From contig NZ_CP026514.1 in NCBI RefSeq assembly GCF_002953935.1, positions 4,154,001 to 4,218,000 of the forward strand: a DNA stretch of 64,000 bases. Direction: 5' to 3'. This DNA comes from Arthrobacter sp. PGP41 (GTDB lineage: Bacteria > Actinomycetota > Actinomycetes > Actinomycetales > Micrococcaceae). Made by a program: the position numbers and the translations under genes. A model generated the notes under the pieces. The model was not told where the DNA came from. It did not search any database and worked only from the letters and a program-made list of their open reading frames with translations. Below are positions 9,825 to 24,814 of this stretch, one piece after another (positions within the stretch are counted from its first letter, which is position 1; each line of letters begins with the position of its first letter).

Positions 9825-10164
9825 TCAGCCGGCGGAACCGTTGACGCGGCGGCGCAGCTCGCCGAAGGCACAAAGTCCAACTACTACCGGACCCGCGCGG
9901 CCCTGGTGGAGGCGGTGCTGAACCGCATGGAGCAGCTCCACGGCCAGCTGCTCCAGGGCCTCGCTCCGTCGAGCCCGCCGGAAAACGTTGCGGAGCTTGC
10001 CGACCAGCTGGCCAGGCTGGTGCTGTCCCTCACCGGCCGCCCGGGCCCGGGACGTGGCGGACTACGGCGACGGCTTGATGCTCCACCTGCTCACGGTCCG
10101 GCGGGACGGGCAGCCAGCTGCTGCAGCCATCGCCGCAGCAGTCCGGCGGCTGCTTGCGCCCTGA
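9825..10164 (+). pseudogene. Remnant of a TetR family regulator
   Basis: Directly after the permease stop, the frame reads AQLAEGTKSNYYRTRAALVE, the second half of a TetR helix-turn-helix, then continues as ligand-domain-like sequence to about 10045. There the reading shifts by +1 and the next frame gives RARDVADYGDGLMLHLL... ending RRLLAP and TGA at 10162, a typical TetR C-terminus. The first 35 or so residues of the DNA-binding domain and any start codon are missing. The gene therefore has both an N-terminal deletion and a frameshift. An assembly error could explain the shift but not the missing start. It may once have controlled the adjacent importer. Confidence 0.65.
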
Positions 10165-10327
10165 GCGCGCCTTCCGCTGGCGCGTGTCCAGCCGGCCCGG
10201 CAGCACCAGGAAGAAGAGCGGAACGAAGGCACCCACGACGTCCTCCAGGATCCTACGCCCGGCACGCGTCGCGAGATCGGAACAGCCGGGCAATACCCCC
10301 GAAACAGCGCCGCGCCATCCTTGGACC

Positions 10328-11167
10328 ATGAAGCCCAGCGCAAGGACCACTCCCGAGGCTGAACTGAGTTGCGAGGTCTGCGGCCTGATGCCGGAACCGA
10401 CCCGGACGCGGCTGACCCTGGCCAACGTGGCGGTGATGCTTCCCATTGAGCTCCTGGTCCACGCGCTGGTGGTGGGCACCGAACTTTCCTACCTGGCCAA
10501 GGTCATGGTGTTGACTGTCACTGCCACTGTCCTTGTCATCTGGGTGGCGGAGCCCTCCGCGGCCCGGGTGCTCCGTAGCTGGCTGCATGCTCCGGCCCTG
10601 CGGCACCGGCGGCGGCTGGCTGTGGCGCCGGCGCTGTGGCGGGCGCGCACCGTCCTCCGGGATGAGCCGGGAGCGCTGCAGAAGGTGACCAAGGCCCTGG
10701 CCCGCCTGGACACGAACATCCTGAGCATCCACGTGCATCCGGTGGCCGGCGGAGTGCTGGACGAGTTTGTGCTGTCCACGCCCGGTGATGTGGATGAACA
10801 CCAGCTGCTCGAGGCGCTGCAGCAGGCCGGCGGCACCCGGTCCCGCGCCTGGCCCACAACAGCCCTGGCCATGGCGGACGGGCAGACGAAGGCGCTCAGC
10901 CTCGCGGCACGGATCGCGGACGCGCCGGATGAGCTGCCGCTTGCCGTGGCGGAGCTGTTGCGGGCACGGATCCTTTCTCCGGCGGAGGCGCGCCTGGAAA
11001 GGCACGACGCCGGCACGCGGATCAAAATTCCCACGGCCTGGCACGGTCCCATCACCTTTGCGCGGCCCGGGGAGCCGTTCACCCCGGCGGAATCGGCCCG
11101 CGCCCACAGGCTGGCGGAGCTGGCCGAAATCCTGGCCCACCGTCCGGCCCCGGGTCTCCCCAACTAG
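10328..11167 (+). CDS. ACT-domain membrane protein
   Basis: A 279-residue protein. Residues about 30-75 form hydrophobic helices (ANVAVMLPIELLVHALVVG and VLTVTATVLVIWVA). An ACT-like regulatory fold follows from about 105 (TVLRDEPGALQKVTKALARLDTNILSIHVHPVAGG), the amino-acid-binding module of metabolic enzymes. No catalytic domain is attached. It may sense amino acids at the membrane; the role is unknown. The start ATG 10328 lacks a clear ribosome-binding site. The last two codons and the stop (CCC AAC TAG) lie inside a repeated inverted-repeat element. Confidence 0.7.
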   Translation: MKPSARTTPEAELSCEVCGLMPEPTRTRLTLANVAVMLPIELLVHALVVGTELSYLAKVMVLTVTATVLVIWVAEPSAARVLRSWLHAPALRHRRRLAVAPALWRARTVLRDEPGALQKVTKALARLDTNILSIHVHPVAGGVLDEFVLSTPGDVDEHQLLEALQQAGGTRSRAWPTTALAMADGQTKALSLAARIADAPDELPLAVAELLRARILSPAEARLERHDAGTRIKIPTAWHGPITFARPGEPFTPAESARAHRLAELAEILAHRPAPGLPN

Positions 11168-11224
11168 GTAGCGCTAAGTGTCGTTATAGGGCCCCAAAAC
11201 GACACTTGGCGCTACCTAGTTGGG
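11159..11224. repeat. Long inverted-repeat element, copy 1
   Basis: Arms 11159-11185 and 11198-11224 are 27 bases each, with one mismatch that still allows a G-U pair in RNA, around a 12-base loop. The left arm begins CCCAACTAGGTAGCGCTAAG. The element lies between two convergent genes and supplies the stop TAG of the ACT-domain gene. A second copy with perfect 29-base arms is at 22043-22108. It could act as a bidirectional transcript end or be a small mobile repeat. Confidence 0.85.
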
Positions 11225-12145
11225 CTACATCCGAATGATCAGGGCGGACGGGTCCATGGTCATCAGGACGTGCTTGCCCTGCCCTTCGTGGTCGCCGTCC
11301 AGCTGGTAGTCGTCGTTGTGCTCCAGGGTGATCTCCACGGTCTTGCCCTGGTAGTACTCCACCGCGGTGTCCTTGCCCCGGCCCTTGCCGATCATCCCCG
11401 CAACCACGGACAGCCATCCCAGCTTTCCGTGGTGCGGGGCCAGCACGGCCACATCGAGCAGGCCGTCGTCCATCTTGGCCTCGGGAAAGATCTCCAGGCC
11501 GCCCTGGACCTTGCCGCAGTTGCCCACCATGACGCTACGGACGCCGCGGTGCACGGCAGTCTTGCCGTCAATCACAATGGTGGCCTTCACCGGTTTGCCC
11601 GGGAGGTTGCGGATGCCGGCGTCCACGTAGGCCAGCCAGCCCACCTTGTCCTTCAGCTCCTCGTTGGTGTCGGCCATGATGGTGGCGTCGTATCCCACCC
11701 CGGCCATGACCAGGAACAGCTGCTCCTTGTCCGGGTCGCTGCGGCGGGCCCGGACGACGTCGATCTTCCGTTCGGTTCCGATCAGGGCGCCGGCCATGGC
11801 GCCGTCGTAGTCGGTGACGTCCATGCCAAGGTTGCGGGCCAGGAGGTTTCCCGTGCCGAGCGGGAGCAGGCCCATCGGGACGTCGCCACCGGAGAGGACC
11901 TCGGCAACGCACCGCACGGTCCCGTCGCCGCCGGCCGCGATGACTATGTCCGCACCCTGGGCGAGTGCTTCCTTGGCCTGGCCGACGCCGGGATCCTCCT
12001 TGGTGGTTTCGAACCAAAGCGGCTCGCCCCAGCCGTTTTCCACACAGTGCTTGGCCACCAGGCCGCGCACGTCGATGTCCACGGGCTTGGCTGGATTGAC
12101 GATGATTGCGGCGCGCTGGAGTGAAGTGGAGCTGTTGGCAGTCAT
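11225..12145 (-). CDS. Diacylglycerol kinase family lipid kinase (YegS/DgkB-like)
   Basis: A 306-residue lipid kinase. The nucleotide-binding GGDGT motif is at residues 72-76 and the conserved LPLGTGNLLARNLG follows at about 95. Family members phosphorylate diacylglycerol, sphingoid bases or related lipids using ATP; DgkB recycles diacylglycerol in Gram-positives. The exact substrate here is not determined. The start is ATG 12145. The gene stops immediately beside the inverted-repeat element, whose own TAG lies in frame two codons further on. Confidence 0.88.
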   Translation of the reverse strand: MTANSSTSLQRAAIIVNPAKPVDIDVRGLVAKHCVENGWGEPLWFETTKEDPGVGQAKEALAQGADIVIAAGGDGTVRCVAEVLSGGDVPMGLLPLGTGNLLARNLGMDVTDYDGAMAGALIGTERKIDVVRARRSDPDKEQLFLVMAGVGYDATIMADTNEELKDKVGWLAYVDAGIRNLPGKPVKATIVIDGKTAVHRGVRSVMVGNCGKVQGGLEIFPEAKMDDGLLDVAVLAPHHGKLGWLSVVAGMIGKGRGKDTAVEYYQGKTVEITLEHNDDYQLDGDHEGQGKHVLMTMDPSALIIRM

Positions 12146-12238
12146 GGCGTCCTTCGGTGGCGAATGGAAAGGCTACTTCTGGAAGAAGACTAGCCTGCCC
12201 CGCGAAGGGTTCGAAGCAGGCAGGCGGCAGGCCGGAAG

Positions 12239-13612
12239 CTACAGCGCCTTGACCGCCCCGAGCACCTGCGCCAGTGAGTCCTTTGCGTCGCCGAACAGCA
12301 GGGACGTCTGGGGCTCGTAGAGCAGGTCATTCTCGATCCCGGCGAAACCCGGCCGCATGGACCGCTTGAGGAAAATCACCTGCCGGGCGTCGGCCACTTC
12401 CAGGATGGGCATGCCGTAAATGGGCGAGCCCTGTGACGTCTTGGCCGCAGGGTTCACCACGTCGTTTGCACCCACCACCAGGGCAACATCCGCGGTTTTG
12501 AACTGCGGGTTGATCTCGCCCATTTCCTTCAGCGACTCGTACGGCACGTTCGCCTCGGCCAGGAGCACGTTCATATGACCGGGCATCCGGCCCGCCACGG
12601 GGTGGATGGCGAAATCCACCTCGATGCCCCGCCCCTCAAGGGCCAGCGCCAGTTCGGCAGCCGTGTGCTGGCCCTGCGCAACCGCCAGGCCATAGCCCGG
12701 AACAATGATCACACGCTGCGCGTAGCCCAGGAGCACCGCCACGTCCTCCGCGCTGGAGGACCGCACGGGACGCTCGCTCACGGCGGTGGATCCCGCCGTC
12801 GAACCTCCCCGGAAGGCGCCGAACAGGATACCGGCCACGCTCCGGCCCATGGCAGCCGCCATGGCCCGGGTAAGGATGGTACCGGAGGCGCCCACCAGCG
12901 TGCCGGCAACCACCAGGAGCACGTTCCCCAGCACCACGCCGGAGGCGGCGACGGCCAGGCCGGTGAACGCGTTGAGCAGCGAGATGACGATCGGGACGTC
13001 GGCCCCGCCCACGGGCAGCACCAGCAGGATGCCGGCGGCCAGGCCCAGGACCAGCAGCAGCGACGCGAGCGGCAGGGAACCGGTGAAAACGACGGCGGCG
13101 GCGGCCGCAACGGCGGCAAGCAGCACCGCGGCCATCACCACAGGCAGCCCGGGGAACACCACCGGCCGCGTTGTCATGAGTTCCTGCAGCTTCGCGAACG
13201 TGACCCCCGAGCCTGCGAAGGACACAGCGCCCACCAGGAGCGTGAAGACAATCGCCAGCCGCATCCAGGGGTCGCCGGCATGGCTGAGTTCAAGGAGCGC
13301 CACCAGCGCCGCCGCCCCGCCGCCCACGCCGTTGAACAGCGCCACGAGCTGCGGCATCTGGGTCATTTTGACCCGCCGCGCCACAGGGGCCGCAACCGCC
13401 GACCCCACGGCTATGGCCGCCAGGATCCAGGGAATGTTTTCCAGCCGTGCGGACAGGAACACGGTGACGACGGCGATCAGCGCTCCCAGAGCGCCAACCA
13501 GATTGCCCCGTCGGGCCGTCCGCGGGGAGCTGAGCCCGCGCAGCGCCAGGATAAAGAAGACGGCGGCAATGAGGTACAGGAGCGAGGTCCATACGGGATC
13601 GAGGAAGCTCAT
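12239..13612 (-). CDS. pntB: NAD(P) transhydrogenase subunit beta
   Basis: This 457-residue membrane subunit holds about nine N-terminal transmembrane helices (domain II) and the C-terminal NADP(H)-binding domain III, seen as IVPGYGLAVAQGQH and later VVGANDVVNPAA. With PntA it couples hydride transfer between NADH and NADP+ to proton movement, supplying NADPH. I chose ATG 13612 (MSFLDPVW): it overlaps the upstream stop in ATGA and gives the family length. The open frame runs further upstream but only over the neighbouring gene. Confidence 0.95.
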   Translation of the reverse strand: MSFLDPVWTSLLYLIAAVFFILALRGLSSPRTARRGNLVGALGALIAVVTVFLSARLENIPWILAAIAVGSAVAAPVARRVKMTQMPQLVALFNGVGGGAAALVALLELSHAGDPWMRLAIVFTLLVGAVSFAGSGVTFAKLQELMTTRPVVFPGLPVVMAAVLLAAVAAAAAVVFTGSLPLASLLLVLGLAAGILLVLPVGGADVPIVISLLNAFTGLAVAASGVVLGNVLLVVAGTLVGASGTILTRAMAAAMGRSVAGILFGAFRGGSTAGSTAVSERPVRSSSAEDVAVLLGYAQRVIIVPGYGLAVAQGQHTAAELALALEGRGIEVDFAIHPVAGRMPGHMNVLLAEANVPYESLKEMGEINPQFKTADVALVVGANDVVNPAAKTSQGSPIYGMPILEVADARQVIFLKRSMRPGFAGIENDLLYEPQTSLLFGDAKDSLAQVLGAVKAL

Positions 13613-13929
13613 CTGCCGTCCGCCTTCCCCGTTGCCTCTTTCGTGCTGACCTGTTTCTTTGCATGGAACATGTGCAGCATCCGGTCGGTCACCACGAAGC
13701 CGCCGACGAGGTTGGCGGTGGCAAGGACGACGGCGAGGAGGGCCACTGCGAGCACCCACGGGTCCGCTGCCTGGCCGGCCACAATGATGGCGCCCACCAG
13801 GATGATCCCGTGGATGGCGTTGGCGCCGGACATCAGGGGCGTGTGCAGGGTGCTGGAGACCTTCGAAACCACCTCGAAGCCCACGAACACCGCCAGCACC
13901 GTGATGGTCAGCAGGCTGATCCCGTCCAT
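13609..13929 (-). CDS. pntA2: NAD(P) transhydrogenase subunit alpha, membrane part
   Basis: A 106-residue protein with three or four hydrophobic helices (LLTITVLAVFVGFEVVSKV, HGIILVGAIIVAGQA, LAVALLAVVLATANLVGGF). It corresponds to the C-terminal membrane part of E. coli PntA, encoded as a separate gene as in many actinobacteria and alphaproteobacteria. It ends in a charged tail. It overlaps pntB by four bases and touches pntA1 by one base, so the three are translated as one operon. Confidence 0.92.
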   Translation of the reverse strand: MDGISLLTITVLAVFVGFEVVSKVSSTLHTPLMSGANAIHGIILVGAIIVAGQAADPWVLAVALLAVVLATANLVGGFVVTDRMLHMFHAKKQVSTKEATGKADGR

Positions 13930-15098
13930 CAGAGCACCCCTTCCCGCCGGCTGCCGGCCCGCTCCGCCAGCAGTTCCGCCGTCGGCCGGTGCCGCACTTC
14001 GCCGTCATGCGTCAGGCAGGCGCCCGCCAGCACCTCGTCCCCGAAGTCGGGGATCAGGGCGCCGTCCCGGACCATGAGCGCAAGCAGGTTGGCAACGTTC
14101 TTGGCGTAGAGGCGGGAAGCGTCCGAGGCCATGGCCGAGGGGGCATCCTTCAGTCCCACCAGCGTGACGAAGCCGGAACCGTCCGCCGTAGGCACCGAGA
14201 CGTCCTGGCCGGGAACCACGGCTTCCACGTTGCCGCCGGACTCTGCGGCGAGGTCGACGACGACGGAACCGGCCCGCATGCCCTGTACCATCTCGGTGGT
14301 GACCAGGAGGGGTGCGCGCCTGCCGGGGACGGCCGCCGTCGTAATCAGCACGTCCGCCTGGGCCACGTGCGGAGCGAGCAGCTGGCGCTGCCGGGTGCCG
14401 GCGTCGGAACTGAGCTGGCGCGCGTAGCCGCCCGCAGCCTCGGCCGCTTCAACGTCCAGCCGGACGAAGGTGCCGCCCATGGATGCCACCTCGTCCGCGG
14501 AGGCCGGGCGGATGTCGTTGGCGAAGACGCGCGCACCCAGGCGTTTTGCGGTGCCGATGGCCTGGAGGCCGGCCACGCCCGCGCCGAGCACCAGGACACG
14601 GGCGGGCGGAACGGTCCCTGCGGCGGTCATGTACAGCGGAAAAAACCTGGGCAGCCGGATGGCCGCTTCCAGGACGCACCGGTAGCCGGCCACCAGCGCC
14701 TGGGAGCTGAGGGCGTCCATGGATTGGGCCCGGGAGATGCGGGGCACCAATTCCAGGGCAAAGGCGGTCACCCCGGCGTCGGCGAGCGCTTCAACCGTTG
14801 GGAGTTCGGACGACGGTGATGCGAGGCCTACCGTGACGGCTCCCCTTTTCAGGGAGCGGGCGGTTTCCGGGTCCAGGGGCCGGACGTGGGCCAGGACGTC
14901 CAGTTGAGCCAGGTCGAGTTCACGGACGAGGCGCACGCCGGCCTGGGTGTATGCCAGGTCGGGATACCCTGCCGCCGCACCGGCATCTTCCTCCAGGAGT
15001 ACCTCGACGCCGAGCGCCGCCAGTTGCTTCACCGTTTCCGGTGTGGCTGCCACACGCCGTTCACCCTCCCGGCGTTCCCGCGGTATGCCTATTTTCAC
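13929..15098 (-). CDS. pntA: NAD(P) transhydrogenase subunit alpha, NAD-binding part
   Basis: A 389-residue soluble subunit (domain I) that binds NAD(H). It opens with MKIGIPRERREGERRVAATP, the alanine-dehydrogenase/PntA N-terminal signature, and has the nucleotide-binding VLVLGAGVAGLQAIGTAKRLGA near residue 170. It transfers hydride to domain III of PntB. The start is GTG 15098 with GGGGAG seven bases ahead. It is the first gene of pntA-pntA2-pntB; the 172-base gap upstream probably holds the promoter. Confidence 0.94.
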   Translation of the reverse strand: MKIGIPRERREGERRVAATPETVKQLAALGVEVLLEEDAGAAAGYPDLAYTQAGVRLVRELDLAQLDVLAHVRPLDPETARSLKRGAVTVGLASPSSELPTVEALADAGVTAFALELVPRISRAQSMDALSSQALVAGYRCVLEAAIRLPRFFPLYMTAAGTVPPARVLVLGAGVAGLQAIGTAKRLGARVFANDIRPASADEVASMGGTFVRLDVEAAEAAGGYARQLSSDAGTRQRQLLAPHVAQADVLITTAAVPGRRAPLLVTTEMVQGMRAGSVVVDLAAESGGNVEAVVPGQDVSVPTADGSGFVTLVGLKDAPSAMASDASRLYAKNVANLLALMVRDGALIPDFGDEVLAGACLTHDGEVRHRPTAELLAERAGSRREGVL

Positions 15099-15270
15099 CC
15101 GCCGACTCCCCTCGCTGCAGTAGCTCGCGGCAGGGCCTCACGGTGGCGCCCGACCGGCTGACCGGCGGGAACGTCGCGGAGCGGCTCTGCTGCACGTAGT
15201 TGGCTAGAGTCTATGGCCCGCACCGCTGCCGCGGGAGTGGGGCGGCGTGCTTGGGTGGCAAACAGTTACC

Positions 15271-16041
15271 TTAAGCCCGGTGCCCGCCGAAATCGATGGC
15301 GATCGACTTTGCCGTTTCCTGCAGCTGGGGGATTACGGTCTCTTCGAGGACTTCGGCGGAAGCCCTGTGGGTCTGCAGCGATACGTTCGCGGCCGCGACG
15401 AGGTCCTTTCCCCGCCACACCGGCACGGCGACGCCGCGCAGGCCCTCCTCGAGTTCTTCCGACACCATCGACCAGCCCTTTTTCCGGGCCGATTCCACTT
15501 CGGCGCGGAGCTCCTCAGGGCTTCCCACCGTCCGCCCGGTAAAACGCTGCAACTGGACCTGCTGCAGGTAGGAGTCCAGTTCGGGTTCCGGCAACCCCCC
15601 AAGGAGCACGCGGCCCATGGACGTTGCCCACGCCGGAAACCTCGTGCCGACGGTGATCGAGACGCTGAGCAGCCGAGGGGACGGGACACATACGACGTAG
15701 ACCACGTCAGCACCCTCAAGGATGCACAGGGCTGTTGTTTCGTTGAGGTTCGCGGCCAGGGCTTTGAGGTGGGGTTCTGCGATCCTGGGCAGGTCGAGTC
15801 CCGCCAGGAAAGACCTGCCGATGTTCAGGGAGCGGGCGGTCAACTCGAAATGGGGGCCTTCCGCACGGATGTAACCGAGGTCGGCAAGCGTCAGGAGGAA
15901 ACGTCGTGCAGACGCACGGGTCATATCCGTCCGGGCCGCTACCTGGGAAACCGTCAACCGTGGAGCCTCCGGGGTGAAGGCCAGCAGTACGTCGAAAGCC
16001 TTCTCAACCGACTTTACAAAGTAGGCCGCCTGCTCCTCCAT
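15271..16041 (-). CDS. IclR family regulator (Pca/Pob-type), left module
   Basis: A 256-residue IclR regulator. The winged helix-turn-helix is TVSQVAARTDMTRASARRFLLTLADLGYI (residues about 30-58). The ligand domain carries ISITVGTRFPAWATSMGRVLL, the hallmark of the PcaR/PobR subgroup that senses aromatic acids or beta-ketoadipate. It sits immediately downstream of a shikimate-dehydrogenase-family gene on the same strand, and probably controls the divergent dehydrogenase and MHS transporter genes. The inducer is not known. Confidence 0.88.
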   Translation of the reverse strand: MEEQAAYFVKSVEKAFDVLLAFTPEAPRLTVSQVAARTDMTRASARRFLLTLADLGYIRAEGPHFELTARSLNIGRSFLAGLDLPRIAEPHLKALAANLNETTALCILEGADVVYVVCVPSPRLLSVSITVGTRFPAWATSMGRVLLGGLPEPELDSYLQQVQLQRFTGRTVGSPEELRAEVESARKKGWSMVSEELEEGLRGVAVPVWRGKDLVAAANVSLQTHRASAEVLEETVIPQLQETAKSIAIDFGGHRA

Positions 16042-16162
16042 GAACAGTGGTGTTCCTCTCCGGACGCTCTGGGCTGGCCCACATGGGCGCGCCGGGTGCC
16101 AGCGCCTTTTCGATCATATAGTGACCGGCCCCAGGGGACAGTCCGGCGATCGCATTCACATG

Positions 16163-16999
16163 TCAGTGACTTGCCTTCAGGAGCTTGAGCTCTTCCTGCA
16201 ACAGGTCTGGGGCCTGTGCCTGCAGCCCCAGGATGGACACCATGGCGACGGCCTGCTCACGAAGATGGTCCCAGCCGTCGATGCACGAAGCCCCGAGCTC
16301 TTCAGCCCGGACAATGCTGGCGGTGGCATGGCTCGCGTACACAAAGTCGTAAACCAGGGCGTCCCGGGCCAGCGGCCCGTTACCCCAGACCGCTTCGTCG
16401 GCGGGGCTCTTTCCGATGGGAGTCGCATTGACAACCAAAGTGGCCCCGGCAGCCAGGTCCTGTGCTTCCTGCCAGGCCACACTCTCGGCGGCGATACCGA
16501 GGCCCCGGGCAAGGCCCAGCAGGTCTGCGGCGGCACGGGCGTCCCTGTCCGCGATAGTGACCCGGCCCACCTGCCCCTTGAGGGCGATCAGGGCCGCCCT
16601 GGCCGCACCGCCCGCCCCCATCATCAGGGCATGGCGCTGGTATCCATCGCCGAGCAGCGCGCCCGCGGCGATAATGTCCGTGTTATGACCGGACAGCGTG
16701 CTGCCCTGCCTGACCAGCAGGTTGCAGGCTCCGCCCAGCCGGACCGCTTCTGTTGCCGTGTCGGCCGCGCGGGCCGCCCACTGCTTGTGGGGCATGGTCA
16801 CGTTGGCCGCGACCACGTCCGGCATGAGGAGCCGGGCGCGGACGGCAGCCATGTCCGCATCCTGCCCCACGTCCCAAGCGTCATAGGTCCAGGGGCTGCC
16901 GAGCTGGTCCAGCACAGGATTCCAGAGTGCAGGGGACATCGCCTCAGAGGCCGCGGAGCCGATCAGGAACAGGCGGGAAGCTGCTGCAGGGTCTGCCAT
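16163..16999 (-). CDS. Shikimate dehydrogenase family protein, left module
   Basis: A 278-residue AroE-family enzyme. The catalytic lysine is in NVTMPHKQW, the catalytic aspartate in GHNTDIIAAG, and the Rossmann glycine loop is GAGGAARAAL. The strand-2 end reads TIADRDARA; an acidic residue there is usually linked to NAD rather than NADP use. Where most AroE proteins have GAVNT, this one has GACNLL, so substrate preference may differ. ATG 16999 was chosen because AAAGG lies seven bases ahead; earlier frame positions lack this. Together with the neighbouring transporter it suggests uptake and oxidation of shikimate, quinate or a related compound. Confidence 0.82.
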   Translation of the reverse strand: MADPAAASRLFLIGSAASEAMSPALWNPVLDQLGSPWTYDAWDVGQDADMAAVRARLLMPDVVAANVTMPHKQWAARAADTATEAVRLGGACNLLVRQGSTLSGHNTDIIAAGALLGDGYQRHALMMGAGGAARAALIALKGQVGRVTIADRDARAAADLLGLARGLGIAAESVAWQEAQDLAAGATLVVNATPIGKSPADEAVWGNGPLARDALVYDFVYASHATASIVRAEELGASCIDGWDHLREQAVAMVSILGLQAQAPDLLQEELKLLKASH

Positions 17000-17099
17000 A
17001 TTCTGCCTTTCGGAAAGGACGGACAGCTCTCGCTGAGTGCCTTGGGGAAACGGCGTTGTGATACGCCTCACCACCTAGTATGCTCGTTCTAAACGCATT

Positions 17100-17125
17100 T
17101 CGCACACTTGTTCGCTATGCGTACA
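17100..17125. promoter_or_regulatory. Candidate IclR operator in the divergent shikimate-module promoter
   Basis: The 26-base site (TCGCAC ... TTGTTC ... ATGCGTACA) contains the imperfect inverted repeat TGTTCG-N5-CGTACA (17109-17125). It matches a site in the promoter of the quinate/pca operon (29172-29197) at 19 of 26 positions by my count. It lies between the dehydrogenase gene (minus) and the transporter gene (plus). Confidence 0.55.
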
Positions 17126-17160
17126 TCAACCCACCGCCTTCAGCGTGGAAGGAACTGAAA

Positions 17161-18498
17161 ATGACGAACATCGCAGCGGGGACAGAGGCCGCGACGGCTG
17201 CCCAGGCGGAACGCCAGCTCAAGCGCGCCAAGAAAGCCGCCTTGGCCGCCTTCCTCGGAGGCGCACTTGAGTACTACGACTTCTTTATCTACGCGACCGC
17301 AGCGTCGCTGATCTTCTCCAAGATCTTCTTTCCCGCAGGCGATCCCACCGTCGCATTGATCGCCTCCTTCGCCACCTTCGGCGTCGCCTACGTCGCCCGG
17401 CCCTTCGGTGCTGTCGTGTTCGGCCACCTGGGCGACAAAATCGGCCGCAAGAACACACTGGTCCTGACCCTCGTCCTCATGGGCGCTGCCACGTTCCTCA
17501 TTGGGATCCTGCCGGACTTCAATAGCGCCGGCTACTGGGCGCCTGCCCTCCTGGTACTGCTCCGGCTGATGCAGGGCCTCTCCGCAGGAGCGGAAACCGC
17601 CGGCGCATCTGCCCTTTCCACCGAGGAAGCTCCCGAAGGCCGTCGCGGATTCTTCGCCAGCTTCGCTATGAGCGGCATCTCCGCCGGTATCGTCCTGGCG
17701 TCACTGGCCTTCCTTCCCGTGGCCGCCATGAGCGAGGCCGACCGGCTGGCGTGGGGCTGGCGAATCCCCTTCTGGGGATCCATCCTGGTGCTGATCGTTG
17801 CCTACCTGGTGCGGCGGTCGTTGGAGGAGCCGGAAGTCTTCGAAGAAAAGCACGACCACGGGGAACTGGTGAAGCTCCCCTTCGCGAAGATGTTCAAGAC
17901 CCATCCGGCCCAGTTCTTCCAGGTGGCCCTGATGTCCTTCGAAACCGTCACGAACACCTTCATGCAGTCCTTCGGCCTTGCCTACGCTGTCACCGTGGGA
18001 GTTCCGGCTTCAACCATGCTCTGGGTCAGCATCCTCGGAAACGTCCTGGCTATCGGCACGCAGCCGCTCATGGCCCATTTCTCGGACCGGTTCGGCCGGC
18101 GTCCGGTGTTCATCACCGGCGTGCTCGGATCCGGAGCCATGATCTTCGTGTACTTCTCGGTGATCTCCACTGGAAACATCCCCATGATCTTCCTGACCAG
18201 CACGCTGATCACCGCCGGCACCTACGCCATGTCCAACGCGATCTACCCTGCGTGGTTCTCCGAGCTGTTCAACGTGAAGGTCCGATACTCCGGCATGGCC
18301 ATCGGCCTGCAGATCGGCATCCTCTGCGCCGGCTTCACCCCGCTCCTGGGCACGGCCCTGGTGGGAGCAGACAAAGCCAACTGGGGACCGGCCGCATGGA
18401 TCGTCGCAGGCTCATCCGTACTGGCCGTCGCCGGCGCCCTCTGGGCGCGCGAAACCAGCAAGACCCCCCTTCGCCAGCTCGGCAACGCGGTCAACTGA
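17161..18498 (+). CDS. MHS-type MFS transporter, left module
   Basis: A 445-residue, twelve-helix proton symporter of the metabolite:H+ symporter group (ShiA/ProP/KgtP relatives). Typical features are GGALEYYDFFIYATAASLIF in helix 1, GHLGDKIGRKNTL between helices 2 and 3, and RLMQGLSAGAETAGA in helix 4. ATG 17161 has GGAAGGA eight bases ahead and was preferred to a longer frame. Divergence from a shikimate-dehydrogenase-family gene suggests shikimate, quinate or protocatechuate as substrate. It is a paralogue of the transporter at 30296-31615. Confidence 0.87.
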   Translation: MTNIAAGTEAATAAQAERQLKRAKKAALAAFLGGALEYYDFFIYATAASLIFSKIFFPAGDPTVALIASFATFGVAYVARPFGAVVFGHLGDKIGRKNTLVLTLVLMGAATFLIGILPDFNSAGYWAPALLVLLRLMQGLSAGAETAGASALSTEEAPEGRRGFFASFAMSGISAGIVLASLAFLPVAAMSEADRLAWGWRIPFWGSILVLIVAYLVRRSLEEPEVFEEKHDHGELVKLPFAKMFKTHPAQFFQVALMSFETVTNTFMQSFGLAYAVTVGVPASTMLWVSILGNVLAIGTQPLMAHFSDRFGRRPVFITGVLGSGAMIFVYFSVISTGNIPMIFLTSTLITAGTYAMSNAIYPAWFSELFNVKVRYSGMAIGLQIGILCAGFTPLLGTALVGADKANWGPAAWIVAGSSVLAVAGALWARETSKTPLRQLGNAVN

Positions 18499-18523
18499 AG
18501 CTGGCCGGACCACAGCGGACAGC

Positions 18524-18562
18524 AAGGGGCCGACGGCGGGAAGCACCCGCCGTCGGCCCCTT
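18524..18562. terminator. Bidirectional terminator between the transporter and pcaR-like genes
   Basis: A perfect 17-bp stem (AAGGGGCCGACGGCGGG with its complement) and a 5-base loop AAGCA lie between convergent genes. A/T ends are short but present on both sides. Confidence 0.7.
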
Positions 18563-18589
18563 CCAGTTTGAGGACACGGATGGGGCTGG

Positions 18590-19402
18590 TCAGCCCCGGG
18601 CCGTTAGGTCGGCCGAGATCAGCTTTGCGGTGGCGACGATTTCCTGGGCAACCGATGAAAGGTAGGCGTCAGGGTCCGGCTTGGCAGCCACGGACTGGGC
18701 CTGCAGGGACACGTTCACTGCCGCCACCACCTTTGGCCCGTCGTACACGGGGGCGGCCACGGACATCAGGCCAAGTTCGAGTTCCTGGTCCAGCAAGCAC
18801 CAGCCTTGGGCTCGGACGGTGTCCAGGACTGCCAGAAGTTCCTTGACGCTCCCCAATGCGCGTGGGGTCAGCGGCTTGATGTCGGCGGCAGCAAGGTACG
18901 CCTTGAGGTCAGCAGGAGGCAGCCCGGCCAGCAGCACCCTCCCCATGGAGGTGGCATAGGCGGGGAAACGGGTGCCCACGGTAATGCCTATGGTCATGAT
19001 GCGGCGGGTGGTCACGCGGGCGACGTACGCGATGTCGGTGCCGTCAAGCACAGCGGCGGAGGTGGACTCCCCCAGCTTCAGCGACAGTTCCTCAAGGTGC
19101 GGCTGGGCCAGCTGCGGCAGCGACAGCCCGGACAGGTATGCGTACCCGAGCTGGAGCACCTTGGCCGTGAGCGCGAAGGTCTTGCCGTCGGTCCTGACAT
19201 AGCCCAGCTCCACCAGGGTGTGCAGGAACCGCCGCGCAGTGGCTCGGGTGAGGCCGGTGCGGGCAGCAACCGCGGTGAGGGTCATGACCGGATGCTCTGT
19301 ATCAAACGCGCGGATCACCGCGAGCCCGCGGGCCAAGGACTGGACATATTGGTCACTGGCCTGCGGGGCGGGCTGGTTTTCTGTACTGACGGCGTCGGTC
19401 AT
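18590..19402 (-). CDS. pcaR: IclR family regulator, PcaR-like
   Basis: A 270-residue IclR protein. The helix-turn-helix is LTAVAARTGLTRATARRFLHTLVELGYV and the ligand domain includes ITVGTRFPAYATSMGRVLLAGLPP, as in PcaR/PobR regulators of beta-ketoadipate genes. It is the last gene after pcaF-pcaI-pcaJ on the same strand, the usual place for the pathway regulator. ATG 19402 was chosen because AGGA precedes it by nine bases; a TTG three codons earlier lacks spacing. The gene symbol rests on context. Confidence 0.85.
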   Translation of the reverse strand: MTDAVSTENQPAPQASDQYVQSLARGLAVIRAFDTEHPVMTLTAVAARTGLTRATARRFLHTLVELGYVRTDGKTFALTAKVLQLGYAYLSGLSLPQLAQPHLEELSLKLGESTSAAVLDGTDIAYVARVTTRRIMTIGITVGTRFPAYATSMGRVLLAGLPPADLKAYLAAADIKPLTPRALGSVKELLAVLDTVRAQGWCLLDQELELGLMSVAAPVYDGPKVVAAVNVSLQAQSVAAKPDPDAYLSSVAQEIVATAKLISADLTARG

Positions 19403-19426
19403 GATTACCAATCCTAGGGCCGCCTG

Positions 19427-20101
19427 CTATGGCGCGGCTGCCGCCTCGAGCGGGACCGGTACGAGTTCCTGGAGCTCTTCGAGGGTGCAGCCGAAGGTTT
19501 CCCGGACGGTGACCCCGTCGGGGCCGGTGAGGAAGACGGCCTTGTCTGTGTAGACGCGGGTGACGCAGCCGACGCCGGTGAGCGGGTATGTGCAGGACTC
19601 CACGATCTTGGAGGCGCCCTCGCGGGTGAGCAGGGTCATCATGACGAACACGTCTTTGGCGCCGGTGGCGAGGTCCATGGCACCGCCGACGGCGGGGATC
19701 GCCCCGGGTGCCCCGGTGTGCCAGTTCGCCAGGTCACCGGAGGCGGACACCTGGAAAGCGCCCAGGACGCAGATGTCCAGGTGCCCGCCGCGCATGATCG
19801 CGAACGAGTCCGCGTGGTGGAAGTACGAGGCGCCCGGGAGTTCGGTGACCGGGATCTTGCCGGCGTTGATGAGGTCCTCGTCGATCTCGTCGCCCTTGGC
19901 TTCCGGCCCCATGCCGAGCATCCCGTTCTCCGTGTGGAGCGTGATGTTCTGTTCCTCGGTGAGGTAGTTCGACACCAGGGTGGGCTGGCCGATGCCCAGG
20001 TTCACGAACGATCCCGGGGCGATGTCCCTGGCCACCAGGCGGGCGAGGTCGTCCCGGCCCAGGGGTGTGACGGAGGTCTGGAGGGTTGTTGCGGTGCTCA
20101 T
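19427..20101 (-). CDS. pcaJ: 3-oxoacid (3-oxoadipate) CoA-transferase subunit B
   Basis: A 224-residue beta subunit. The catalytic glutamate of the family is in the HTENGMLGMGP motif and the oxyanion-type GGAMDLATGA segment follows. With PcaI it moves CoA from succinyl-CoA to beta-ketoadipate. Family members also act on acetoacetate, but position between pcaI and pcaR supports the ketoadipate role. It starts one base after the pcaI stop codon. Confidence 0.93.
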   Translation of the reverse strand: MSTATTLQTSVTPLGRDDLARLVARDIAPGSFVNLGIGQPTLVSNYLTEEQNITLHTENGMLGMGPEAKGDEIDEDLINAGKIPVTELPGASYFHHADSFAIMRGGHLDICVLGAFQVSASGDLANWHTGAPGAIPAVGGAMDLATGAKDVFVMMTLLTREGASKIVESCTYPLTGVGCVTRVYTDKAVFLTGPDGVTVRETFGCTLEELQELVPVPLEAAAAP

Positions 20102-20102
20102 C

Positions 20103-20798
20103 TCAAGCGACCTTTCCTGCAGGGGAAGCGGTACTGGCCGCGGGCACGCGGACCACAGTGTTGACGTAAATGCCTGGGGTCACCACGTTTTCCGGGTCCA
20201 GTCCCCCGACGGGGACGATCTCGGAAACCTGGACGATGGTGTGCCTGGCCGCGGCGGCCATGATCGGGCCGAAGTTCCGGGCCGTCTTGCGGTACACAAG
20301 GTTGCCCTTGCCGTCGGCCTTCAGCGCCTTGATCAGGGCGACGTCGGCGTGGATAGGTGTTTCGAAGACCTGGCCGCGGCCGTCGATGATGCGGGTTTCC
20401 TTGCCCTCGGCCAGCATGGTGCCGTACCCGGTGGGGGTGAAGAACCCGCCGATCCCGGCCCCGGCGGCACGGATCCGCTCGGCCAGGTTTCCCTGCGGCA
20501 CGAGTTCGAGTTCGATCTCGCCGGCCTTGTACTTGGCGTCAAAGTGCCAGGAATCGGACTGCCGCGGGAAGGAACAGATCATCTTCCGCACCCGGCCCTC
20601 CTTGATCAGCAGCGCCAGGCCCTGATCGCCCTGGCCCGCGTTGTTGTTCACCACGGTCAGGTCCGTGGCGCCGCAGTCCAGCAGCGCGTCAATGAGTTCG
20701 AACGGCTGCCCGGCATTGCCGAACCCGCCAATCATCACGGTGGAACCGTCCTTAACACCGGACACGGCCTCCCGGACAGAATCTACGAAGTTCAGCAT
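20103..20798 (-). CDS. pcaI: 3-oxoacid (3-oxoadipate) CoA-transferase subunit A
   Basis: A 231-residue alpha subunit. The CoA-binding motif is VMIGGFGNAGQPFELIDAL near residue 22, followed by NNNAGQGDQGLALLI and the conserved TPTGYGTMLAEGKE segment. It partners PcaJ. The start overlaps the pcaF stop by one base, so pcaF-pcaI-pcaJ form a tight translational unit. Confidence 0.93.
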   Translation of the reverse strand: MLNFVDSVREAVSGVKDGSTVMIGGFGNAGQPFELIDALLDCGATDLTVVNNNAGQGDQGLALLIKEGRVRKMICSFPRQSDSWHFDAKYKAGEIELELVPQGNLAERIRAAGAGIGGFFTPTGYGTMLAEGKETRIIDGRGQVFETPIHADVALIKALKADGKGNLVYRKTARNFGPIMAAAARHTIVQVSEIVPVGGLDPENVVTPGIYVNTVVRVPAASTASPAGKVA

Positions 20799-22012
20799 TA
20801 CTGGTCCTTTCCAGTGTTGGTTCCGGCGGCGGTCACGTTTTCGAGGACCACGGCCAGGCCCTGGCCCACACCGATGCAGATCGCGGCCACGCCCCAGCGT
20901 TCACCGGAGGCCTGCAGGCTCCGGGCGAGGGTGCCCAGGATGCGGGTTCCGGACGCACCCAGCGGGTGGCCCATCGCGATCGCGCCGCCGTGCCGGTTCA
21001 CAATTTCGTGGTCGATCCCCCAGGCGTTGATGCACGCCAGGGACTGCGCGGCGAACGCTTCGTTAAGTTCGACGGCGCCCACCTGGTCCCAGCCGATCCC
21101 CGCCTTCGCGAGGGCCTTGTTCGCCGCCTCCACCGGGGCGTACCCGAAGTACTGGGGATCGTTCGCGTGCGCGCCGCGGCCGGCGATCCGGGCCAAAGGG
21201 TCCAGCCCCAGCAGCCCGGCGGCAGCCTCGCTCCCCACCCAGGCCGCGGAGGCGCCGTCGGACAACGGCGAAGCATTCCCCGCAGTGACCGTGCCGTCCT
21301 CGGTCCGGAACACCGTCTTCAAACCGGCCAGCTTCTCCGCCGAGGAACCGGGGCGGATGCCCTCATCACGCACCAGGTCCGTGCCCGGCACCGGCGCCAC
21401 CAGGTTGTCATAGAACCCCTCGTCCCACGCAGCGGCGGAAAGGTTATGCGAGGCAGCGGCGAACTCGTCCTGCGCCTCCCGGGTCACCCCGTACTTCTCG
21501 CGCAGCCGCTCAGTGGCCTCGCCCAGGGATATGGTCCACTCCTTCGGCATGGCCTTGTTCACCAGCCGCCAGCCCAGGGTGGTGGAGGCCAGGGTCATGT
21601 CACCGGCCGGGTAAGGCTTCGCCGTCTTGGGCAGCACCCACGGCGCCCGGGACATCGACTCCGCCCCGCCCACCAGCACCAGGTCGGCGTCGCCGGCGTT
21701 GACCTGGCGGGAGGCGATGATCGCAGCATCCAGCGAGGACCCGCAGAGCCGGTTCACCGTGGTGCCCGGGATCGATACCGGAAGGCCGGCGAGCAGGGTG
21801 CCCATCCGGGCGATATTCCGGTTTTCCTCACCCGCGCCGTTCGCGTTGCCGAACACCACCTCGTCAATCCGCCCAGGATCGAGGTCGGGGGCCCGCTTCA
21901 CGGATTCCTTAATGACGTGCGCGGCGAGGTCATCCGGGCGGACGGCGGCAAGGCCGGACCCGAATTTGCCGAACGGGGTGCGCACGGCGTCGTACACAAA
22001 AGCCTGGTTCAT
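20798..22012 (-). CDS. pcaF: Beta-ketoadipyl-CoA thiolase
   Basis: A 404-residue thiolase that cleaves 3-oxoadipyl-CoA into succinyl-CoA and acetyl-CoA, the last step of the pathway. The nucleophilic Cys90 is in NRLCGSSLDA, the histidine in GGAIAMGHPLGASG, and the second cysteine in CIGVGQGLA. PcaF and PaaJ cannot be separated by sequence alone, but its place before pcaIJ fits PcaF. An inverted-repeat element lies 31 bases upstream of its start, between it and pcaC. Confidence 0.93.
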   Translation of the reverse strand: MNQAFVYDAVRTPFGKFGSGLAAVRPDDLAAHVIKESVKRAPDLDPGRIDEVVFGNANGAGEENRNIARMGTLLAGLPVSIPGTTVNRLCGSSLDAAIIASRQVNAGDADLVLVGGAESMSRAPWVLPKTAKPYPAGDMTLASTTLGWRLVNKAMPKEWTISLGEATERLREKYGVTREAQDEFAAASHNLSAAAWDEGFYDNLVAPVPGTDLVRDEGIRPGSSAEKLAGLKTVFRTEDGTVTAGNASPLSDGASAAWVGSEAAAGLLGLDPLARIAGRGAHANDPQYFGYAPVEAANKALAKAGIGWDQVGAVELNEAFAAQSLACINAWGIDHEIVNRHGGAIAMGHPLGASGTRILGTLARSLQASGERWGVAAICIGVGQGLAVVLENVTAAGTNTGKDQ

Positions 22013-22042
22013 AACTCGTTCCTCTGGTTTGCGTCTGGGTTT

Positions 22043-22108
22043 CCCAACTAGGTAGCGCTAAGTGTCGTTTTCGGGGGTCAAAACGACACTTAGCGCTACC
22101 TAGTTGGG
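22043..22108. repeat. Long inverted-repeat element, copy 2
   Basis: Arms 22043-22071 and 22080-22108 are a perfect 29-base inverted repeat around an 8-base loop (CGGGGGTC). The outer end reads CCCAACTAG inward on both sides and supplies the last two codons and stop of pcaC on the minus strand. It is nearly identical to copy 1 at 11159-11224. Here it lies inside the pca operon between pcaC and pcaF, where the RNA would fold into a very stable hairpin with no T run after it. Confidence 0.9.
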
Positions 22109-22564
22109 CTGGGGTTCGTCGGTGTGGGTGTTGTCCAGTGCAGTGTTGTCCATTGCATGGAAGACCTCTTGGGCTGTCTTAAAGGCCGTGTTCGCCGAGG
22201 GGACGCCGCAGTAGATGGCCGTCTGCAGCAGGATTTCCTTGATCTCGTCCCGGCTCAGGCCGTTCCGGACCGCGGCACGGATGTGCATGGCCAGCTCTTC
22301 CCAGTGCCCGTGCGCCACCATCGCGGTGATGGTGACGGCGGAGCGCATCTGGCGGGAAAGGCCGGGCCGGGTCCAGATGCCGCCCCACGCGATCCGCGTG
22401 ATCATGTCCTGGAAGTCCTCGGTGAACTCGTCCTTGTTGGCGTTGGCCCGGTCCACGTGCGCGTCGCCCAGGACTTCGCGGCGGACAATCATGCCGCCGT
22501 CGTAAATGTCCTGGCTGGTGGCATCGGGCTGGACCACGCCGTGGCTCGGGTCATTCGTGCTCAT
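22100..22564 (-). CDS. pcaC: 4-carboxymuconolactone decarboxylase
   Basis: A 154-residue AhpD-fold enzyme that decarboxylates gamma-carboxymuconolactone to beta-ketoadipate enol-lactone. Family features are TRIAWGGIWTRPGLSRQMRSAVTI, the histidine-rich AMVAHGHWEELAMHIRAAVRNG, and AIYCGVPSANTAF. Many actinobacteria fuse this domain to PcaD as PcaL; here the two are separate but overlap by four bases (ATGA, 22561-22564). The last codons, CCC AAC TAG, come from the inverted-repeat element. Confidence 0.93.
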   Translation of the reverse strand: MSTNDPSHGVVQPDATSQDIYDGGMIVRREVLGDAHVDRANANKDEFTEDFQDMITRIAWGGIWTRPGLSRQMRSAVTITAMVAHGHWEELAMHIRAAVRNGLSRDEIKEILLQTAIYCGVPSANTAFKTAQEVFHAMDNTALDNTHTDEPQPN

Positions 22565-23391
22565 GAGTCTGTTCCCTTCGATTCGGCCCAGGTGATGAGG
22601 CTGCGCATCAGGTCTGCCACGTGGGCAGGCGCCTCGGCGGGGGCCAGGTGCGCCACGCCCTCGAGCGTGACGGCGGTTGCGGTGCCGCCGCCGGCTGTGA
22701 TGCCTGCGGCCACTTCCTCCGCGAACGACGGCGGGGCCACCCCGTCCAGCGCGCCGGCTATGACCTGGGTTGGCACCCGGATGCTGCCCAGTTCGTCACG
22801 CACGTCAAAAGCCGCGAGCGCCTCGCAGCAGAATGCATAGCTGAAGCGGTCGGCGTCGCGCAGGGCGTGCAGGAGCCGGCTGCTGAGTTCAGGCTCGCGC
22901 TCCATAAAGCCCGGCGCGAACCAGCGCTCGGCCGAGCCCTGGATCATCACCGGCGTGCCCTGGCTGCGGACGGTTTCGGCGCGCTCAAGCCACCCCTCCG
23001 GCGTGCCCAGCTTCGCGCCGCTGCACTGCACTGACAGGCTCTTGAGGCGTTCCCCGTGCTTGATGCCCAGCTGGAGGCCGGTGGCGCCGCCCAGGGAGAC
23101 GCCGGCGTAGTGAAAAGACGCGCCGGGGGCGATGGAATCGGCGAGGTCCACCACGGCGTCAGCCAGTGCGCCGACGTCGAACGATTCGGAGGCCGCAGGT
23201 GAGACGCCGTGGCCGGGCAGGTCCCAGGCCACCACGTCGTAGTCGTGGCCGAGCAGGGACGCAGCGCGGTTCCACAGGATGGTGGAGGTGCCCAGGGACG
23301 GCCCCACCACCAGCAGCGGGTGCTCGCCGAGGGGGCGTTGAGGCGACAGCAGTGCTGCCTTCAGTGCTGGCTTAGCCACGGGAAGATCCAT
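22561..23391 (-). CDS. pcaD: 3-oxoadipate enol-lactonase
   Basis: A 276-residue alpha/beta hydrolase that opens beta-ketoadipate enol-lactone to beta-ketoadipate. Nucleophile Ser99 lies in AGVSLGGATG, the acid in AGALDGVAPP and the histidine in EGVAHLAPAEAP. The oxyanion-hole region is VVGPSLGTSTILW. It overlaps pcaB by 20 bases at its start and pcaC by four at its end. Confidence 0.91.
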   Translation of the reverse strand: MDLPVAKPALKAALLSPQRPLGEHPLLVVGPSLGTSTILWNRAASLLGHDYDVVAWDLPGHGVSPAASESFDVGALADAVVDLADSIAPGASFHYAGVSLGGATGLQLGIKHGERLKSLSVQCSGAKLGTPEGWLERAETVRSQGTPVMIQGSAERWFAPGFMEREPELSSRLLHALRDADRFSYAFCCEALAAFDVRDELGSIRVPTQVIAGALDGVAPPSFAEEVAAGITAGGGTATAVTLEGVAHLAPAEAPAHVADLMRSLITWAESKGTDS

Positions 23392-24814
23392 TCTGTTCGG
23401 TGTCTGCAGGTGGATTGGCGGCGAAGTCCGGATACGCGGCCAGGATCCGCCGGGAAATTTCCGGGGCCTCGCCGAGGTAGCCGGCGGGGTTGAGGAGTTC
23501 CTCCAGCCGGAGGTCGCTCAGGACCCCGGCAGGGACCGCCTCGCGGAGCAGCTTGCGGTACGTGGCGGCCTGCTCCGCAGGCGGGGCCTGGAGTGTCTGG
23601 TCCACCACGGCCTGGAGCTGCTGCTTTCCGCTCATCCCGCCCTTGTCCGGAAGCAGCGGGGCGACAGCTGCACCCACGCCTTCAGCTAAAAGCAGCGGAC
23701 CGGCGAGATCCAGATTCCGGCGCATGGCGTCCGGGAAAACCTGAAGGCCCTCCGCCAGTTCGCGGACATGCCCGGCCGCCCCGAGGGCCAGCGCCAGGAG
23801 CTGCCGAAGCGCGGGCCACTCGGCGTGCCACGCGGCGTCCGGGCGTTCGTCGTTGAAGTTGGCGGCGGCCAGGTGCAGCTGGGCGGCCAGGGCCGGGGCC
23901 TGCAGCGCGGCGCTGCGGACCAGCACGGACAACACGGGGTTCTGCTTCTGCGGCATGGCGGATGAAACCCCGCGCCCGGCGGCCCGCGGCTCAGCCAGCT
24001 CGCCGACCTCGGGCCGGCTCAGGAACAGGACGTCCGCGGCGATTTTGCCGAAGGCATCCAGTACCGAGGCGAGCGCATGCCCCAGCGACGTCACGGCCAG
24101 CCGGTTGGTGTGCCACGGCGCGGGGGCCGCGGCAAGGCCCAGCTGGGAGGCCAGGGCATCGGCGAGCCCGAAGGGGGTGGCAGCTGAACCGCGGGTCAGT
24201 ACAGTGGCAGCCGCGAGGGTGCCCGCCGCGCCGCCGAACTGGACCGGAAACTCTTGGTCCTCCAGCTGCCGGCCCGCCGCGGCCAAGCCCTGGAACCACT
24301 GCGCAGCCCGCAGGCCGAACGTGAAGGGGAGGGAATGCTGCGTCAGGCTCCTGCCCACGCACAGCGTGTCCGCGTGCTGTTCCGCCAGGGCCGCGAGCGC
24401 CGCCGTGGTGCGTTTCAGGTCGCCCAGCAGCGCCTCCACGGTGTTGCGGGTCACCAGCATCAGCGCGCTATCCAGGACGTCCTGGCTGGTCAGCGACGTG
24501 TGCACCGCTTTCCCCGCCCCCACCTGCGAGGTGTCCAGCGCTGCCACGTGCCGGCGGAGGTCCGCCAGCAGCGGGATCACCGGGTTGCCGCCGCCCTGGG
24601 CACGGCGTGCGATGTCGGCGGGGTCATAGCGGCCGGCCTCGGCAGCGGATGCGACGACGGCGGCGGAGCCGGCAGGTGCCAGGCCCGCCCTTTCCAGCAC
24701 CGCGGCCCAGCCGGACTCGACGGCGAGGATCGCCGCCAGCACGGCGTCGTCACCCGTGAGCGCCGCCACGAGGGGCGACGCCGAGACGGGGCTGAGCAGG
24801 CCGGCGTCGTTCAC
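23372..24814 (-). CDS. pcaB: 3-carboxy-cis,cis-muconate cycloisomerase
   Basis: A 480-residue member of the fumarase/argininosuccinate lyase superfamily. The signature loop reads GVSSAMPQKQNPV (near residue 280) and the substrate segments TSQDVLDSAL and LTQHSLPFTFG are present. It turns 3-carboxymuconate into 4-carboxymuconolactone. The C-terminus is longer than in some homologues but resembles the bacterial PcaB domain. It overlaps pcaG by four bases at its start. Confidence 0.93.
   Translation of the reverse strand: MNDAGLLSPVSASPLVAALTGDDAVLAAILAVESGWAAVLERAGLAPAGSAAVVASAAEAGRYDPADIARRAQGGGNPVIPLLADLRRHVAALDTSQVGAGKAVHTSLTSQDVLDSALMLVTRNTVEALLGDLKRTTAALAALAEQHADTLCVGRSLTQHSLPFTFGLRAAQWFQGLAAAGRQLEDQEFPVQFGGAAGTLAAATVLTRGSAATPFGLADALASQLGLAAAPAPWHTNRLAVTSLGHALASVLDAFGKIAADVLFLSRPEVGELAEPRAAGRGVSSAMPQKQNPVLSVLVRSAALQAPALAAQLHLAAANFNDERPDAAWHAEWPALRQLLALALGAAGHVRELAEGLQVFPDAMRRNLDLAGPLLLAEGVGAAVAPLLPDKGGMSGKQQLQAVVDQTLQAPPAEQAATYRKLLREAVPAGVLSDLRLEELLNPAGYLGEAPEISRRILAAYPDFAANPPADTEQNGSSRG

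Follow-up and report, generated by a model that had tools for sequence, protein, structure and literature searches.

Described palindrome families and the Arthrobacter element

A long-standing question is whether extragenic palindromes represent junk, mobile DNA, or working parts. Mycobacterial MIRUs are dispersed actinobacterial repeats that overlap stop codons in operons; the elements analyzed here share this dispersal in an actinobacterium and the overlap with stop codons but are palindromes, whereas MIRUs are direct repeats. In the passages of Di Nocera et al. (2013; PMC3733652) cited here, GTAG-tagged REPs are 20 to 40 bp long, bear GTAG at one end, and are linked to RAYTs. The same passages describe REP termini as a frequent source of TAG stops for flanking ORFs, and the donation of stops by REP palindromes has been published before. 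REPINs, in the cases described in the cited portions of Bertels and Rainey (2011; PMC3116915) and of PMC8049555, are populations duplicated by a RAYT, and genomes without a RAYT can, according to these sources, still carry them. In the cited part of the RepRanger article (PMC12306157), ribosome stalling is reported for E. coli REPs located at most 15 nt from a stop codon. According to a table in that article, predicted palindromes number in the thousands in Arthrobacter livingstonensis, and copies of the family analyzed here could be among them. Uptake-sequence pairs are described as terminators in Neisseria and Pasteurellaceae in the cited part of Kingsford et al. (2007; PMC1852404). In the main text of open-access papers, we found no published description of this sequence or of Arthrobacter palindromic repeats.

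We analyzed a 64,000-nucleotide stretch of DNA from Arthrobacter sp. PGP41 (the window), in which a first-pass annotation had proposed two nearly identical inverted repeats that donate stop codons to neighboring genes. Both elements were found where they had been placed (Table 1). In each, CCCAACTAGGTAGCGCTAAGTGTCGTTTT is followed by 8 nt and the complement of CCCAACTAGGTAGCGCTAAGTGTCGTTTT to give a 66-bp palindrome, and the two copies share 91% identity across 68 nt. As annotated, the arms of copy 1 have a single mismatch in their outer 27 nt (T/C, arm position 17); a second mismatch lies at position 28. The 29-nt arms of copy 2 are fully complementary around their 8-nt loop. We also confirmed that CCC AAC TAG from the element closes both the ACT-domain gene (Pfam ACT match) and pcaC (TIGR02425 match above the cut-off), and that the stop of the lipid kinase gene abuts copy 1. 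Because the gap between them is 0, the TAG of the element lies in the kinase frame. RNA folding of the 66-mers gave -49.1 to -54 kcal/mol, with z from -9.8 to -14.1.

Table 1. Positions of the two palindromes and their flanking genes within the window
Feature	Coordinates	Strand	Remarks
Copy 1, 66-bp palindrome	11159..11224	none	Between convergent ACT-domain and lipid kinase genes
Copy 1, left half-site	11159..11187	+	29 nt; position 28 is A
Copy 1, loop	11188..11195	none	8 nt, agggcccc
Copy 1, right half-site	11196..11224	-	29 nt; position 17 is C
TAG in copy 1	11165..11167	+	Stop of ACT-domain gene
ACT-domain gene	10388..11167	+	Start from codon-model caller; 10154 in open-reading-frame list
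YegS-type lipid kinase gene	11225..12145	-	Stop (11225-11227) abuts copy 1
Copy 2, 66-bp palindrome	22043..22108	none	Flanked by pcaC and thiolase gene; 29-nt arms without mismatch, 8-nt loop cgggggtc
TAG in copy 2	22100..22102	-	Stop of pcaC
pcaC (4-carboxymuconolactone decarboxylase)	22100..22564	-	
Thiolase gene	20798..22012	-	Start 30 nt past copy 2, co-oriented

The long palindrome is beyond chance; the decamer CCCAACTAGG alone, with at most one mismatch, matched the window five times, which is within chance (at least five matches in 21/100 shuffles). A search of the window against Rfam 15 gave no match at the gathering score. In 10 further element loci, Rfam 15 matched nothing at the element and detected only an RNase P RNA (L052, 1740-2131) and a TPP riboswitch (L053, 277-384), both distant from the element.

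Compared with GTAG REPs as described in the cited passages (PMC3733652), the Arthrobacter elements are likewise palindromic, dispersed, and located mostly between unidirectional and convergent genes near 3' ends, and they share both the downstream position and the donation of stops. Unlike GTAG REPs, the Arthrobacter element is 66 bp long and has GTAG at arm positions 10 to 13 rather than at its end; in relatives GTAG is replaced by GTCG, CTCG, or CTGG, and a search of its own genome detected no RAYT domain. The likeness to REPINs, as far as the cited portions describe them, extends to two inverted conserved ends around a less conserved, variable spacer, a hairpin, compensatory change in the spacer, and largely vertical inheritance. 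Differences from REPINs are the loop of only 8 nt, a second conserved core near the loop, and half-sites conserved at orthologous places. An associated RAYT was also not detected: the RAYT domain (PF01797) had 0 matches in the host genome (G000) and was present in 1/41 genus genomes (G032) and in 5/14 genomes of the control rings. The element works like a REP or REPIN, with the same place and stop donation, but two defining features, the end tag and the RAYT, fail. It resembles the E. coli REPs of the cited RepRanger passages in forming a hairpin close behind a stop codon; its sequence is unrelated.

Distribution, placement, and inheritance of the copies

A search of the host genome (4,270,237 bases, one contig) with at most three mismatches gave 38 + 38 matches to the arm and 44 + 44 matches to the palindromic core, with 0 for the reversed-pattern control of the first and 0 for the backward control of the second. 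Together with a 45th copy that has a 9-nt loop, the 4.27-Mb genome contained 45 copies, two of which lie in the window. These findings bear out the annotated dispersal of the element, which, with empty controls, is not due to chance. As in the inverted pairs of uptake sequences at gene ends (PMC1852404, cited part), a conserved half-site is used. Unlike the element, uptake sequences also occur singly and in about 1000 or more copies. When we scanned the G000 loci at up to seven mismatches, 87/89 arm matches lay inside the 44 elements and the other two were the 45th copy; single half-sites were absent there, and a DNA uptake sequence analogue was rejected.

Across the genus, the strict end pattern detected copies in 58/101 genomes and a generalized pattern in 87/101, at 0 to 107 per genome, with a control of 0. 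The strict pattern misses 43 genomes and the general one 14; therefore, having no copy by the strict pattern often means having another dialect. At the family level, the end pattern with at most one mismatch occurred in 58/395 genomes and 2/32 genera. Among 45 named loci encoding the kinase, 44 were labelled Arthrobacter or Pseudarthrobacter and one Micrococcaceae bacterium. Three plasmid records, from Arthrobacter/Paenarthrobacter, had a match. In one of them, from a plasmid of Paenarthrobacter ureafaciens that is typed conjugative, the copy (L353, 2501-2567) sits between aceA and aceB, with 8 nt separating aceA from its start and 19 nt separating its end from aceB. A phage origin was rejected, with 0 matches in phage records and viral contigs without an exact match to the pattern of the host dialect. 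The G000 chromosome contained a copy-free stretch of 939 kb (C1, 1425668-2364855), and a gap this large arose in 22/20000 random placements. Because what we take to be a dnaN-like gene lies near position 3000 of this chromosome, the replication terminus may fall within this gap.

To place copies relative to genes, we used the flanks of 195 copies from five genomes (G000, 44/45 copies; G091, 51/56; G086, 25/37; G062, 40/40; and G021, 35/35 by the extraction pattern, with 36 by the general pattern), with starts and gene ends from a codon-model gene caller trained on the window. None of the 195 copies was inside a called gene or read through by one. The neighboring genes were convergent at 68 copies, codirectional at 112, and divergent at 15. 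Gene ends facing the element were tightly placed, with 218/248 at -13 to 29 nt and the majority of copies 0 to 30 nt past a stop codon; on the far side, element-to-start gaps were loose (2 to 662 nt; at most 30 nt in 35/142). Among the G000 loci, convergent ends made up 25/51 with an element versus 46/149 without (P = 0.027). In the 112 codirectional copies, orthologues counted separately, CCC was also better conserved on the gene side than on the far side (deviation 0.009 versus 0.092). Flanks of codirectional copies (L036-L070, L133-L272) were C-rich between stop codon and element and G-rich beyond. A stem longer than 66 bp formed by these flanks was rejected, since flank pairing was below the shuffled mean (1919/2000 shuffles at or above the observed value).

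The annotation had viewed the element as one that disperses to gene ends and brings its own stop in a common coding phase. Its dispersal, its location at gene ends, and its donation of a stop at 43/248 gene ends in the five genomes (38 at -9 and 5 at -13) were upheld. The phase rule was not, as gaps modulo 3 over orthologous gene ends, each counted once, were 30/25/17, although -9 prevails among coding sequences that extend into the element (-9 in some member at 17/94 gene ends and -13 at 4/94). Insertion at stop codons under a phase rule was likewise not supported by these gap phases. Nor was selection to keep the stop supported by the triplet at half-site positions 7 to 9, which was a stop as often in out-of-frame arms (83/108) as in in-frame arms behind a gene's own stop (59/76); it was also a stop in 113/163 arms facing no gene end. 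This triplet is located in a degenerate stretch of the arm, and orthologous gene ends alternate between their own stop, -9, and -13. The donated stop codon thus looks like an incidental by-product because of its degenerate position, its equal frequency out of frame, and the lack of a phase rule in the gaps. It would arise from the CCC AAC TRR with which the element begins and would come into use once a gene's own stop is lost.

When copies were grouped into sites, for which both flanks had to match, the 195 copies fell into 73 sites. Of these, 52 were shared by two or more of the five genomes, 37 by three or more, and 8 by all five. The other 21/73 sites occurred in one genome only, as counted with 51/56 copies of G091 and 25/37 of G086. 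These findings show that copies in the five-genome set are mostly inherited in place. Sites also get lost. Among 30 purN loci, the element was present in 17 and absent in 12, with G036 not read, and at the kinase locus several relatives (G091, G077, G013, and G115) had apparent remnants and others nothing. Ancestral presence at the same loci in all relatives, which the first-pass annotation had set against its own proposal, therefore applies in part: many sites are ancestral (52/73 shared), and some relatives lack the element. At purN 3' ends without the element (L325-L329, L332, L337, L339, and L341), we observed another repeat-like sequence of the CGACGCGCA ... TGCGCGTCGA type, which gives the impression that rival palindrome families occupy gene ends in the Arthrobacter-type group.

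Half-site conservation and species dialects

Over 233 orthologous pairs, core positions of the half-site (4, 10, 11, 13, 14, 18, and 21 to 27) diverged at 18/6058 (0.3%) and the loop at 502/1864 (27%), a contrast flattered somewhat by the choice of the position classes after the arm variation had been viewed. Divergence elsewhere in the half-site was 314/1864 at positions 6 to 9, 251/1398 at 15 to 17, and 81/1398 at 1 to 3. We take these findings to show that half-sites are held at their sites by purifying selection and are not decaying dead insertions.

The conserved arms and differing loops of the two window copies had been taken as a sign of selection on pairing. As the cause of arm conservation, pairing was not supported. 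Among 186 distinct elements, with 100 distinct loops, A4, G10, T11, C14, T21, G22, and C24 were invariant in both arms, and agreement between arms at positions 1 to 9 and 28 was close to that expected from independence (position 6, 0.77 versus 0.78; position 28, 0.63 versus 0.64). Agreement exceeded expectation at positions 15 to 17. We also compared pairing with within-genome shuffles in seven other genomes, using 14/14 copies of G088, 12/12 of G077, 12/12 of G060, 20/23 of G009, 13/17 of G002 (17 in this listing, 21 by the general pattern), 20/100 of G087, and 20/27 of G032. At positions 1 to 14, excess pairing was below 0.05 in none of the seven. Excess pairing was mainly at positions 15 to 20, in G009 (0/2000), G032 (6/5000), and G087 (55/5000), and was not significant there in G088 (213/2000), G077 (338/2000), G002 (419/2000), and G060 (984/2000). 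Positions 21 to 29 gave 28/2000 in G088 and 31/5000 in G032. Fixed letters are thus held as letters, and free letters are partly held in pairing; the excess pairing could also come from arm-to-arm template correction.

The arm consensus was specific to each genome: the host has TGTCGTT after GCYAAG, G088 has GCGCGTT, G002 has GGGCGTTC, and G077 has AGATGTCGTT. At the purN 3' end, where CTGTGGATAAC follows the element in 16/17 genomes carrying it, we observed the dialects GCTAAGTG in the G000 group, AGCAGATG in G121, G077, and G029, TTAACG in G020, G116, and G122, and AGTTGTTG in G001, G017, and G120. A second element site lies about 1.05 kb beyond the purN site. Over the inner 12 letters, these two sites differed on average by 1.38 letters within a genome versus 4.98 for the same site between genomes (0/10000 shuffles; n = 30, with rows inspected in the 12 genomes that had a kinase-site call and other false rows possible among the 30). 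Stricter extraction of the same two sites gave 1.43 versus 4.65 (0/10000; n = 21). If two inherited sites drifted independently, 1.38 versus 4.98 would not result; the two neighboring orthologous sites therefore evolve in concert. The comparison of purN with the distant kinase site was weak (2.78 versus 3.97, 14/10000; n = 8, including two false calls, G079 and G091, without an intact element there). Comparison of the second site with the kinase site was not significant (597/10000; n = 9). The second-site row of G060 was also a false call.

Neighboring copies near purN shared unusual centers, TCGGAATAG in G077 (L335) and CCCAATgaggcctgAGTAG in G105 (L363), which suggests copying between neighboring copies; local copying therefore contributes somewhere. 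Because cores are uniform but 100 loops occur among the 186 elements, whole-element copying is not enough to account for the data from the five genomes. This loop diversity also led us to consider the loop as a possible variable spacer for a recombinase.

Candidate explanations for the gene-end palindromes

We lean toward the explanation that the family consists of genus-wide, REP/REPIN-like gene-end palindromes of 66 bp with a role at RNA 3' ends, whose half-site is read by a putative genome-encoded factor. Both this reading factor and the role at transcript 3' ends are what we infer from the patterns described above. The element would be transcribed as a long hairpin directly past the stop codon, and the hairpin would limit the reach of the transcript or of its 3' decay, acting as a partial terminator or as a processing or protecting element. 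The putative factor, in reading the half-site, would keep the dialect uniform. Complete termination of transcription at copy 2 is unlikely, given its location within the pca genes and 30 nt ahead of the start of the thiolase gene, and the elements are unlikely to be absolute terminators.

More tentatively, and with considerable doubt, the family could represent an unrecognized Arthrobacter-type gene-end system, in which dozens of 3' ends carry a 29- to 33-nt half-site as an inverted pair and a putative trans-acting factor would read this half-site; the specificity of the factor would drift, and sites would be rewritten together into a species dialect with their places unchanged. If true, bacterial gene ends would bear a mark that a factor reads in a sequence-specific manner, independently of RAYTs and of U-tract terminators. 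With dozens of copies at the same gene ends across several species, selection is measurable site by site, and selection on half-site letters that change in step makes a concrete, testable case for a gene-end-reading factor, in a group in which no RAYT was found in 40/41 genomes.

It is unlikely that the element is instead a MITE or REPIN that inserts just past stop codons, with the half-site conserved for recognition by a transposase. Dispersed copies at 0 to 107 per genome, copies on plasmid records, and sites confined to one of five genomes (21/73, as counted with 51/56 copies of G091 and 25/37 of G086) are consistent with mobility, as is the description of REPINs, in the cited portion of PMC3116915, as a conserved end pair around a variable spacer. 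However, the RAYT domain was not detected in its own genome, by which a RAYT-driven REPIN was rejected, and matched in just one of 41 genus genomes; target duplication was not evident by eye; no autonomous version was encountered incidentally; and the core persists in old copies at shared sites, as it would not in idle relics. The single genome of the 41 with a RAYT domain, G032, has two Y1 transposase matches (L131 and L132) and 27 copies by the general pattern.

We consider it quite unlikely that the copies are ordinary bidirectional transcription terminators sharing their sequence by happenstance. Such terminators would fit the tight placement past stops, the excess at convergent ends (25/51 versus 46/149, P = 0.027), the hairpins of -49 to -54 kcal/mol, and an additional perfect hairpin past the element at 7/51 gene ends. 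Terminators do not need fixed letters, yet the core has them, and positions 1 to 14 show no excess of pairing. The Rho-independent hallmark of a GC-rich hairpin with a T-run was not found, as a run of four T's lay near the far end in 3/42 codirectional groups, and a Rho-independent terminator scan of positions 10000 to 24000 of the window listed neither copy. Copy 2, so close before a co-oriented start, and the 35/142 element-to-start gaps of at most 30 nt, which leave little room for a promoter, further argue against this explanation.

Improbable in our estimate is a DNA-level site for a chromosome-organizing or recombining protein, for which gene ends would be the places that tolerate a 66-bp palindrome. 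The two-fold symmetric, independently varying half-sites and the 939-kb stretch without copies (22/20000 random placements) would be compatible with such a site, but the tightness to stop codons and the asymmetry between gene side and far end indicate a connection to transcription or translation. Integron attC-like recombination sites are highly improbable: the element ends, CCCAAC...GTTGGG, resemble attC boxes (RYYYAAC/GTTRRRY) and lie past stop codons, but an integron integrase above the TIGR02249 cut-off was found in 0/10 genomes (weaker matches occurred in this set and in each of the 14 control genomes), copies are scattered over the chromosome rather than in cassette arrays, and 46/372 arms have G rather than C at position 6.

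Elsewhere in the window (40544-40690), we observed a short-period direct repeat with five 48-nt copies in register at spacings of 15 to 36 nt, which is probably a repetitive protein segment.
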